Below are positions 23,827-55,365 of a DNA stretch of 64,000 nt, piece by piece. Source of the DNA: Acetohalobium arabaticum DSM 5501 (GTDB taxonomy: Bacteria; Bacillota; Halanaerobiia; Halobacteroidales; Acetohalobiaceae); assembly GCF_000144695.1 (NCBI RefSeq), contig NC_014378.1, positions 408,781-472,780 on the forward strand, written 5' to 3'. The notes under the pieces were generated by a model. The model saw only the letters and a list, made by a program, of their open reading frames with translations. It was not told the origin of the DNA and ran no database searches. How positions within the stretch are numbered: the first letter of the stretch is position 1; each line of letters starts with the position of its first letter. Made by a program: the position numbers and the translations under genes.

Positions 23827-23930
23827 AAGATAATTGATATTATGTGTCACTCTGCAATGTACTTGCATATATTCCTTATTTGTAGTTACCTAGCATAGTC
23901 GGTATAATCTCATTTATGATATTACTGGGG

Positions 23931-24058
23931 ATAGTCAATATGTATCCGCCGCTTGCCGTTCGCTCAACGTCCTGTTTCGCTCACTGTCAAAAACTGCCCC
24001 TCCGTCGTCCATGACTCCGGGCCAGTTTTAAGAGTCGCTCTGGACACATATTGACTAT
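23931..24058 (+). repeat. Structured repeat family A, copy A1 (short form, 128 bp)
   Basis: Begins ATAGTCAATATGTATCC and ends GGACACATATTGACTAT, near-perfect 17-bp inverted ends. An inner stem AAAACTG-CCC / GGGC-CAGTTTT is present. It shares the blocks CCGCCGCTTGCCG, CGTCCTG and TTTTAAGAGTCGCTC with the other copies. Confidence 0.85.
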
Positions 24059-24124
24059 CTGTAATAAAGTGTTATCATCGATGGAAGTTATTCTAGATAC
24101 ATGATAATTTATTTTGGGTTACAA

Positions 24125-24361
24125 ATAGTCAACATTTCTCTGGAGCGACTCTTAAAACTGATTCGGAACCATGGAGGCTGTAGAGAAACTGATTTTAGCT
24201 CTTTGTCTTTAAATCAGAGCTTTAATATTATCTCTTGGCTCAGTAAGTTCATCCCATAGCCAGCATTGGTTTGTATGCTGGATATGGTGGAGAATCAGTT
24301 TTTGAGAATGAATGAGGCAGGACGCCGAATGAGTGGCAAGCGTAAGAGATTTGTTGACTAT
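24125..24361 (-). repeat. Structured repeat family A, copy A2 (long form, 237 bp, inverted)
   Basis: Read on the minus strand it starts ATAGTCAACAAATCTCT and ends AGAGAAATGTTGACTAT. Its inner stem is AAAACTGATT / AATCAGTTTT, and an extra arm contains CCAGCAT...ATGCTGG. It has the same order of conserved blocks (GGCGTCCTG, TTTTAAGAGTCGCTC) as A1, A3 and A4. The 68-codon frame that overlaps it on the minus strand has no family resemblance. Confidence 0.8.
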
Positions 24362-24441
24362 AATCTGCAATATCATGAAAGAAATTATATTAGCTGCAAA
24401 TGGAAAGTGACACATAATATCAATATAATACTAATTTTCCC

Positions 24442-50080: not shown

Positions 50081-50186
50081 TTATTTGCTAAATAAGACTT
50101 AATTGTTTATAATATAAGAGGATAATTTATTAATCATGCACATCAACTTAGGCTAAATTAATGTACACATTCATAATATTACAGGG

Positions 50187-50424
50187 ATAGTCAATATGTA
50201 TCCGCCGCTTGTCGTTCGCTCAACGTCCTGTTTCACTCACTCTCAAAAAACAGTTTTCCGCATAGCCAGCATAAAGATCAATACTGGCTATGGGAGTAAC
50301 TAATTGAGCAGAAAGATAGTATTAATGCTCTAATTGACAAGGCTAGGAGCAAGGATTTATAATCCTGCGGACCTCCATGGCTCCAAACTGTTTTTAAGAG
50401 TCGCTCTGGACACATATTGACTAT
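50187..50424 (+). repeat. Structured repeat family A, copy A3 (long form, 238 bp)
   Basis: Ends ATAGTCAATATGTATCC and GGACACATATTGACTAT as in A1. Inner stem AAAAACAGTTT / AAACTGTTTTT. Extra arm with CATAGCCAG...CTGGCTATG. Length is within one base of A2. Confidence 0.85.
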
Positions 50425-50571: not shown

Positions 50572-50718
50572 GTTGATATCTTGCAAAAAGCGACTTTAAA
50601 GCAGTCCCACAAGAGAGAATGATTAACATATAAAGCAGAATCTTTAAATCGTAACATTAAGGTTGATTTACTGCTGAGTGATTAGGACTGATTTTTGGAG
50701 CGTTTGCAAGATATCAAC
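50572..50718 (+). repeat. Structured repeat family B, copy B1 (147 bp)
   Basis: Terminal arms GTTGATATCTTGCAAA (50572-50587) and TTTGCAAGATATCAAC (50703-50718) are perfectly complementary. A second stem CAGTCC/GGACTG lies inside. It corresponds along its length to B2, with which it shares AAAAAGC.ACTT.AAGCAG, CATATAAAG and GACTGATTTT..GAGCGTTTG-like blocks. Confidence 0.8.
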
Positions 50719-50792
50719 TCTAAACTGCAACAATATATCAATAATGATTAACTTATATATTAAGTTGACGTGTATGATTTATTAATTAGATT

Positions 50793-51842
50793 TTGAAGAA
50801 AGGGATGGGGTTTTTGTTTGATTTTCAATCGCGTAATAGAAATTTAGCAGCTGTGGTGATTATGATTCTTTTTATTTTAACGCTGACTAGCATTTCTTAT
50901 CTCCAGAAATGGACAGGGCCGGTGGATAGAGGAGCGGTTTCTGCTTATGAAGTTGAGGTTAAGTCAGGGGCTAGCAGCGGTCAGATAGCTAACTTGTTAT
51001 TTGAAAAGAAATTAATTAGACATCCGTTTCTTTTTAAGGCATTGGTTAGATTCAAGGGAGTTGAGAATAAGCTGCGGGCGGGCTATTATAGATTAAGCAC
51101 AGGTATGTCGATTGATGAAATGATAGATAAGTTAGTTAGTAATGAGGTGATTACTTATCAGGTAACTATTCCGGAAGGATATACTGTCGAAGAGATTGGG
51201 GATAAATTATCTAAAAAGGCTGGCTTTAGTAAGAAGCAGTTTCTTACGGTAGCGGAAGAATTAAAGGCTGAATTTTCTTTTGCCGAAGAGATAGATGTTA
51301 AGCATCGGAAATATCCGTTAGAGGGCTATCTGTTTCCGGAGACTTACTCAATTCCGAAGGGGACTGCTCCGGAGAATATAATTAAGTTGATGGTGGGGCA
51401 ATTTAAGGAGAAGTTAATTGATAAATTAATAACAGAGGTGAAGCAGAGCAAGTATAGTCTGGATGAGATAATAACAATTGCTTCTTTAGTGGAAGCAGAG
51501 GTAAAGTATGATAAGGAGCGGCGGTTGATTGCAGGCGTGATCCATAACCGGCTGAATAAAAATATGTTACTCCAGATAGATGCTACTATTCAATACATTC
51601 TGCCGGAGCATAAAGAGCAGATTCTTTATAAAGATTTAGCTTTGGATTCGCCGTATAATACCTATCAACGTTTAGGCTTACCGCCGGGGCCGATCAATAA
51701 TCCGGGGCTGGCTTCGATTAGGGCAGCACTCAATCCTGCTGAGACGGATTACTTATATTACTTTGCTTTAGAGGATGGGAGCCATAAATTTAGTGAGACT
51801 TATCAGGAGCATCTGCGGCTGCAGAATAAGTTGAAATATTAA
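50793..51842 (+). CDS. mltG: Endolytic transglycosylase MltG
   Basis: About 345 aa. One N-terminal membrane helix (about 20-38), a LysM-like subdomain (about 50-105: VKSGASSGQIANLLFEKKLI), and the YceG catalytic domain with the Glu-containing IASLVEAEVKYDKERRLIAG, FHNRL-type VIHNRLNKNM, LQIDATIQYI and SPYNTYQRLGLPPGPINNPG. MltG cuts nascent glycan strands near the membrane. The start is uncertain: TTG 50793, ATG 50805 and TTG 50814 are all in frame near AAAGGGATGGGG. The gene is flanked on both sides by A-B repeat pairs. Confidence 0.94.
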   Translation: MKKGMGFLFDFQSRNRNLAAVVIMILFILTLTSISYLQKWTGPVDRGAVSAYEVEVKSGASSGQIANLLFEKKLIRHPFLFKALVRFKGVENKLRAGYYRLSTGMSIDEMIDKLVSNEVITYQVTIPEGYTVEEIGDKLSKKAGFSKKQFLTVAEELKAEFSFAEEIDVKHRKYPLEGYLFPETYSIPKGTAPENIIKLMVGQFKEKLIDKLITEVKQSKYSLDEIITIASLVEAEVKYDKERRLIAGVIHNRLNKNMLLQIDATIQYILPEHKEQILYKDLALDSPYNTYQRLGLPPGPINNPGLASIRAALNPAETDYLYYFALEDGSHKFSETYQEHLRLQNKLKY

Positions 51843-51924
51843 GGCTTGATTATGTAAAGACTAGTAATATTATGTGTAAATCTACAATCTTTTCACGTAT
51901 ATATTTGATCATGATATTGCCAGA

Positions 51925-52051
51925 ATAGTCAATATGTATCCGCCGCTTGCCGCTCATTCGGCGTCCTGCCTCATTCGCTCTCAAAAATAGCCCTCTCGCC
52001 GTCCGTGGCTTCGGGCTATTTTAAGAGTCGCTCTGGACACATATTGACTAT
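51925..52051 (+). repeat. Structured repeat family A, copy A4 (short form, 127 bp)
   Basis: Ends ATAGTCAATATGTATCC / GGACACATATTGACTAT. Inner stem AAAATAGCCC / GGGCTATTTT is perfect. It keeps CCGCCGCTTGCCG, GGCGTCCTG and TTTTAAGAGTCGCTC. Confidence 0.85.
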
Positions 52052-52084
52052 TGATAATAAAGTACATTTAATTTTGCGTAATTA

Positions 52085-52230
52085 GTTGATATATTTCAAA
52101 AAGCAACTTAAAGCAGCCCCAAATAAACGAGTTATTAGCATATAAAGTAAAATTTTTAAGCCATAGCTCTAAGTATAATTTATTGCTAATTGATGAGGGC
52201 TGATTTTGGCAGCGTTTGAAATATATCAAC
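52085..52230 (+). repeat. Structured repeat family B, copy B2 (146 bp)
   Basis: Arms GTTGATATATTTCAAA (52085-52100) and TTTGAAATATATCAAC (52215-52230) pair perfectly despite two base-pair changes relative to B1. Inner stem CAGCCC/GGGCTG. The gap from mltG to the methyltransferase (51843-52323) contains only A4 and B2. Confidence 0.8.
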
Positions 52231-52323
52231 CCTCAACTGTAGTATTATATCTATGAGGCGTAAGCTGCTGGAATTAATCTAGCTGATAATATATTGAAGA
52301 GCAAATAAAGGTGGTTGTTAGTA

Positions 52324-54472: not shown

Positions 54473-54609
54473 TTTGTGTAGGTAATTTATTCTTTAAGTA
54501 GTAATATTATAATGTGGCTTGTTTTATATTAGGTTGTTGAATAATTAGTTTAATAAATTGCTTAATTAGCAATTAAAGTTGAAATTTGATTTCTAATTAT
54601 TATCAAGAC

Positions 54610-55365
54610 TTATCTATTCCAAGAAAATTTATTATCTGTTATTCCATTTTCTATTCTACATTGATCAGTAAAATCATCAATAGAATCTGCATTTCTATAA
54701 TTTATATCGGTCAATAATTTAAAACCTAGATCGTCTGCTAATTTGAATAATTTAGTGCTATCATAGGCTGCATCACCTAAAAGAATGAAAATATCATGTT
54801 CATCTAACGGTTCCATGATTTCTTTACAGCAATCAAAGGTGTTATCATAGACATTTCCAGTGGTGAACTTAAATGATAGTGGAATAGAGTCATTTGAAGC
54901 TATTAAATGTAATTTATATCCTTTATATCTACCTAGATTAGTTGATAGACCAAATTTAGCATTTAAATCATTCTTTGAACTTCTTAAAGCAGTTGCATCA
55001 ATAGATGTAATTCTAGTATCAGGATTTAATTCTTTAATCACTGACTGAAAAAGTATATTAAATTTCATTTTTTCAAGCTGATTAAATCTAATAGCAAATG
55101 TAGAATGATCAGGTACATCATTAAGTCCGATGATACCACGAGCTAAAAGATCTTCCTTAAGCTTAGACTCTAGTTCTCGCAAACAATAAATTTTATTTTT
55201 AACTTTGTACAATAAATACTTAATCATTTATAAATCTGAATATTTTTTAGGTTTTCCACGTCCTAGATTTTCTTGAGGAGAAAATTTTGTATAATAAATT
55301 TCATCTAGTTTGGAACAAATTTGATAAAAAGTGTTTTCTTTTAAAGCTTCAGGTGATATAATCAT
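54610..55365 (-). pseudogene. IS4/IS5-type transposase, nonsense-mutated and truncated
   Basis: The gene began at ATG 55365 behind AAGGAG. After 45 codons (ending KPKKYSDL) a TAA at 55228-55230 interrupts the frame; the continuation MIKYLLYKVKNKIYCLRELE is in the same frame, so a single base change (CAA to TAA) explains it. Two catalytic acids of a DDE transposase are visible (SIDATALRSS and LLGDAAYDS), but the frame ends at KFSWNR soon after, without the region that normally supplies the third acid. No intact terminal repeats were found. Its upstream flank has matched arms (GCTC.CTTTCTAGT / ACTAGAAAG.GAGC). Confidence 0.75.

Follow-up and report, generated by a model that had tools for sequence, protein, structure and literature searches.

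Family B hairpins of Acetohalobium arabaticum are probably the core of a MITE-like mosaic intergenic repeat

Two hairpin-forming repeats of Acetohalobium arabaticum, here called B1 and B2 (Family B), differ from each other by paired base changes in their stems, which raises the question of whether pairing is kept because an RNA works or at the level of the DNA. Both lie in the window, the 64,000-nucleotide stretch that was analysed (positions 408781-472780 of a single 2,469,596-bp contig). The first-pass annotation had described them as a structured two-copy repeat with perfect 16-bp terminal arms and double compensatory changes in the arms and in an inner 6-bp stem. Arm pairing was borne out at the exact coordinates in both copies, as were the double changes (Table 1). 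The window contained 10 perfect 16-mer inverted repeats within 160 nt and each of 20 first-order Markov shuffles contained none, while structure prediction gave folding z-scores of -5.1 to -5.8 for B1 and B2 on either strand, in support of a structured repeat.

Table 1. Features of Family B and its surroundings; positions are those of the window unless prefixed C1
Feature	Position	Strand	Remarks
B1 core, 147-bp imperfect palindrome, arms GTTGATATCTTGCAAA/TTTGCAAGATATCAAC	50572..50718	+	read from sequence
B1 arms	50572-50587/50703-50718		perfect 16-bp pairing
B1 inner stem, CAGTCC/GGACTG	50602-50607/50685-50690	+ (CAGTCC)	covarying pair, alignment columns 34/125
B1 right end TCTAAACTGCAACAATATATCAAT, near-constant 24 bp	50719..50742	+	adjoins B1 core; in nearly all copies
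B2 core, 146 bp, arms GTTGATATATTTCAAA/TTTGAAATATATCAAC	52085..52230	+	as for B1
B2 arms	52085-52100/52215-52230		perfect 16-bp pairing
B2 inner stem, CAGCCC/GGGCTG	52114-52119/52197-52202
B2 right end CCTCAACTGTAGTATTATATCTAT, diverged	52231..52254	+	adjoins B2 core
Direct repeat ATTTATTAAT, left copy	50125..50134	+	flanks whole B1-locus insertion; congener has single uninterrupted site GATTTATTAGCTAG
Outermost left inverted repeat CATGCACATCAACTTA, B1-locus insertion	50135..50150	+	pairs with 50761-50776
Family A palindromic module, ends ATAGTCAATATGTATCC/GGACACATATTGACTAT	50187..50424	+	inside B1-locus insertion; inverted repeat I25
Outermost right inverted repeat CATACACGTCAACTTA, B1-locus insertion	50761..50776	-	sequence given on - strand
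Direct repeat ATTTATTAAT, right copy	50777..50786	+	compared with congener empty site
Family A module left of B2	51924..52052	+	inverted repeat I16
Core-less subfamily sites	C1:71595, 85492, 740727, 805145, 1652375, 2368993

Copies were gathered by genome searches with B1 and with B2, together with fetched regions, and were then merged. This genome-wide search, which had been proposed at the outset, did away with the notion of a two-copy family, B1 and B2 being two of at least 61 intact cores (144-150 bp) in the A. arabaticum genome; at least about seven partial or interrupted cores were found among the matches listed. The cores are intergenic. Two cores, at C1:318802 and C1:2396862, are interrupted at one shared point (after AAGCGACTT), each by a related palindrome about 60 bp long (GCTAACCGCAACATCCTGTTGCAGCG...). 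Among 60 relatives searched, a congener whose DNA is about 82-83% identical to that of A. arabaticum near mltG carried four intact cores and one fragment, and the other 59 gave no core match at E 0.001; short, AT-rich weak matches in G002-G004 were taken as chance. Pattern scans of bacterial/archaeal and viral collections, from which the A. arabaticum genome itself is possibly absent, returned no other carrier.

The arms had been read as the boundaries of the unit, but they are internal in most copies, where the core is the inner module of a larger repeat. To the right of the core, nearly every copy runs on as the 24-bp right end and then diverges; the last 21 bases of this end have 94 matches in the genome at up to 3 mismatches, against 0 for a reversed-pattern control. 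To the left, a common sequence continues through TTTAAACGC...TTTTGCACAATTA and gives way to a variable string of modules including Family A, and the left end, in the copies where it was found, lies 81-560 bp from the core. Left and right ends form the terminal inverted repeat (TIR) ATTGATATATTGT in most copies, and elements with paired outer TIRs mostly measure 280-730 bp. Outside ATTGATAT the flanks of both sides have a weak common motif, about WWWRYTNYA, and some copies possess an outer (A/G)CGTCAACTTA repeat. Candidate element ends are ATTGATAT or CGTCAACTTAA, and the element is onion-like, with true ends that differ between copies. Most of this architecture was read directly from the sequence; that the ends served as transposase sites is what we infer.

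Neither the B1 insertion nor the B2 spacer contains an open reading frame of at least 60 amino acids, and the short size, the lack of a transposase gene and the high copy number are those of a MITE. At six sites the core has been lost through one common join that keeps the right arm and the right end (Table 1). Since these six core-less copies have both outer ends and sit at separate sites, the core is not needed for spread. The window also holds a 592-bp element (23833-24424) with the same outer TIRs (ATTGATATTATGTGTCACTC...), no B core, and Family A modules facing each other.

A module of the Family A kind lies to the left of most B cores. The Family A hairpin, present at about 51981-52022 and at some 50 other places in the genome, has a hypervariable stem of 10-11 bp, which takes about ten different sequences (AAAACTGACTC, AAAAACAGTTT, AAAAAGAACTT, AAGATTAGTCC...) and yet pairs without a mismatch in most copies; with AAAA/TTTT at its borders, it resembles a two-way terminator. 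Its broken pairs are about equally G-U (5) and A-C (6). Inside the Family A module of the B1 locus, a perfect sigma-70 consensus (TTGACA-18-TATAAT, 50334-50363) points at B1 and mltG; it may be there by chance. A scan of the B cores for promoter and terminator consensus sequences gave nothing decisive.

The whole B1-locus insertion is enclosed by the direct repeat ATTTATTAAT and, within it, by an inverted-repeat pair of 16 bp with 2 mismatches. In the congener, where the gene order is hypothetical gene, mltG, O-methyltransferase, the insertion is absent and ...GGAATGATTTATTAGCTAG... runs straight into the mltG leader. At a second locus, C1:789801, the congener site is empty too, and the element of A. 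arabaticum has TCTTCTTTT as a direct repeat on either flank. Clear direct repeats, 9-10 bp long as in a target-site duplication, were found at these two loci only. At the ATTGATAT boundary there was no convincing excess of target duplications over re-paired flanks, and this lack of a consistent duplication implies that the true ends vary between copies. The congener counterpart of the B2 site has a diverged-looking remnant of the right half of Family A and no B core; at this site Family A thus seems to be older than the species split, B2 having been either gained here or lost in the congener. For a B element of the congener (L094), A. arabaticum has at C1:974204 a scar ending in CTGCAACAAT, which suggests loss of an older copy.

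No TIR pair of the genome encloses a transposase, except in two copies with a nested insertion, whose transposase ORF pairs (621-1831 of L026 and 2431-3644 of L030) we take to be of the IS3 type. The PF01609 transposases of the genome have no TIR motifs paired at their ends and PF00872 is absent from it, so that an autonomous partner with matching ends was found neither among the TIR pairs nor in these two families. The partner may have been lost or may reside in another strain, and because none was found we call the repeat MITE-like and assign it to no named transposon family. At 54550-55020, on the - strand, lies a decayed DDE transposase (PF01609) with three internal stops.

With good probability, Family B forms the hairpin core of a mosaic intergenic repeat of Acetohalobium that is non-autonomous and MITE-like, a reading based on the copy number, the ends, the two empty congener sites with flanking duplications, and the paired changes. 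In most copies the mobile unit would be larger than the core and would comprise the AT-rich TIR (with additional shells of inverted repeats in some of them), a left segment where Family A and other palindromic modules were inserted or rearranged, and then the 147-bp core and the near-constant 24-bp right end. A DDE-type transposase, lost or unrecognised in the genome, would have acted on the end repeats, and copies would have moved into intergenic DNA with a duplication of about 9 bp. The arms could stay complementary either because unpaired copies fail to spread or through correction from the other arm; near-palindromes may be corrected in this way during replication, by template switching in quasi-palindromes. 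Both routes would act on DNA and need no RNA function. Against the MITE-like reading, core pairing is stricter than spread alone would obviously need.

How strict it is was analysed over 27 stem pairs in 59 distinct sequences. Paired cells made up 99.4% of the stem cells. The covariation check suggested by the first-pass annotation gave a clear signal: cells with a change on both sides numbered 48, whereas shuffling led to an expectation of 13.4 and sliding the partner columns by 1-3 left 0; the pairs changed on both sides are four, in two separate helices. Because the shuffles preserve the composition of the columns but ignore relatedness, the carriers of each state were also inspected. The outer-arm paired states are common to 41-42 and to 16 of the 59 sequences, and those of the inner stem comprise 39 C-G, 14 T-A and one A-T and, once, CAGCTC/GAGCTG. 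Each unpaired state is confined to a single copy, except for an inner-stem T-G carried by two copies that the tree does not place as sisters, and in the unpaired columns of the same arms one-sided changes are common to many copies.

A tree of the interior alone, which has few columns and many open forks, placed the B2 arm type in two places, and the copy at C1:1316705 joins a B2 left arm to a mismatched B1 right arm. This is the one copy found of the kind that had been named beforehand as telling against the structure, namely with arms that do not pair. As hybrid and arm-swapped copies exist, arms and interior have had separate histories, and as congener copies have B2-type arms only, the derived arm type is probably that of B1. 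The constraint on pairing exceeds chance, pairing being favoured or restored, but a mismatched copy can exist.

Such constraint might also arise if mobility depended on an extruded DNA hairpin, so that pairing mattered and sequence did not, and stems drifted yet stayed complementary. The B inner stem shows drift with kept pairing, and the adjacent stem of Family A shows it more strongly; we regard this dependence as unlikely.

It is quite improbable that Family B is a structured RNA family with many intergenic copies (a small RNA, a riboswitch-like leader or an mRNA stability hairpin) whose pairing is kept because the RNA works. The strong folding of B1 and B2 and the compensatory changes in two separate helices would fit such a role, and B1, with a conserved TTTATAATATAA box on one side and mltG on the other, may sit in the mltG leader. 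When one RNA strand is under selection, G-U pairs are expected to be tolerated more than A-C pairs. The broken pairs, a small sample of 5 G-U and 6 A-C, revealed no one-strand wobble preference, although this test is weaker if chance decides which strand of a copy is read. Folding is about equally strong on the two strands, and the loop, with a divergence of 0.26 per site (0.06 in the arms), is not conserved and contains no covarying helix. Orientation to the flanking genes is mixed, with (-,-) in 30 and (+,+) in 18 of 61 copies and no significant bias, and no Rfam family was matched, the three matches of the scan all being far below the curators' gathering scores. These results do not support an RNA function intrinsic to one strand, and it is more likely that pairing is kept at the DNA level, via spread or hairpin-templated correction. 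This evidence concerns one-strand function, local effects on neighbours such as mltG being outside its reach.

Very unlikely is a core that is itself the transposon, with the 16-bp arms as its TIRs, nested by chance in other repeats. It would fit with arms that hardly vary around a diverging interior, with core flanks that differ in some B2-type and congener copies, and with the resemblance of the arm motif TTGATATMTTKCA to the outer TIR. Yet the flanks on both sides of the core are common to nearly all copies of the genome, a TCT-AACTG-like right flank is preserved even in most B2-type copies, the arm ends show no target duplication, and core-less copies still spread. No uninterrupted TTGCACAATTA-TCTAAACTGC join was seen in an outer element. 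The suspicion raised at the outset, that the arms might be ordinary transposon ends, is right in that the family looks mobile and wrong in that, for most copies, the mobile unit does not end at the arms. We also rejected an attC-like (integron) reading, since the copies are dispersed and the arms are without the attC end motifs in the right order.

In its general form, the MITE-like mosaic appears closest to bcr1, ERIC and Correia/NEMIS. The bcr1 repeat of the Bacillus cereus group is 147 bp long (PMC2267715) and mobile-like, with tens of intergenic copies in one group only, a predicted common stem structure, and mobility tied to repeated TTTAT motifs (PMC6542083). Family B is like it, in general form only, in length, intergenic copies, stem, narrow host range and mobile look, and unlike it in lying as an inner module within a mosaic that has TIRs at its ends and 9-10 bp repeats on either flank. 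ERIC/IRU and Correia/NEMIS are short, TIR-bounded, mostly intergenic repeats that form long stem-loops, and ERIC has orientation-dependent effects on mRNA (PMC2229807). Family B shares with them the form of short TIR-bounded intergenic palindromes and differs in TIR sequence, host and modular nesting; an orientation-dependent mRNA effect is not suggested for it. BOX of Streptococcus pneumoniae is a mosaic intergenic repeat built of separable modules, and Family B, likened to it by description, has a similar mosaic build with different modules.

No paper on a Family B repeat of Acetohalobium was found in the literature. Family B is a new, lineage-limited, MITE-like mosaic intergenic repeat that belongs to no named family, although the kind itself is familiar; what is new is a local example of such a repeat and not a new RNA. 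It accounts for dozens of intergenic spacers in Acetohalobium and advises caution against calling an RNA from a paired change in two copies alone. Its 59 distinct natural variants with kept pairing could separate selection on a DNA hairpin from templated correction of near-palindromes.
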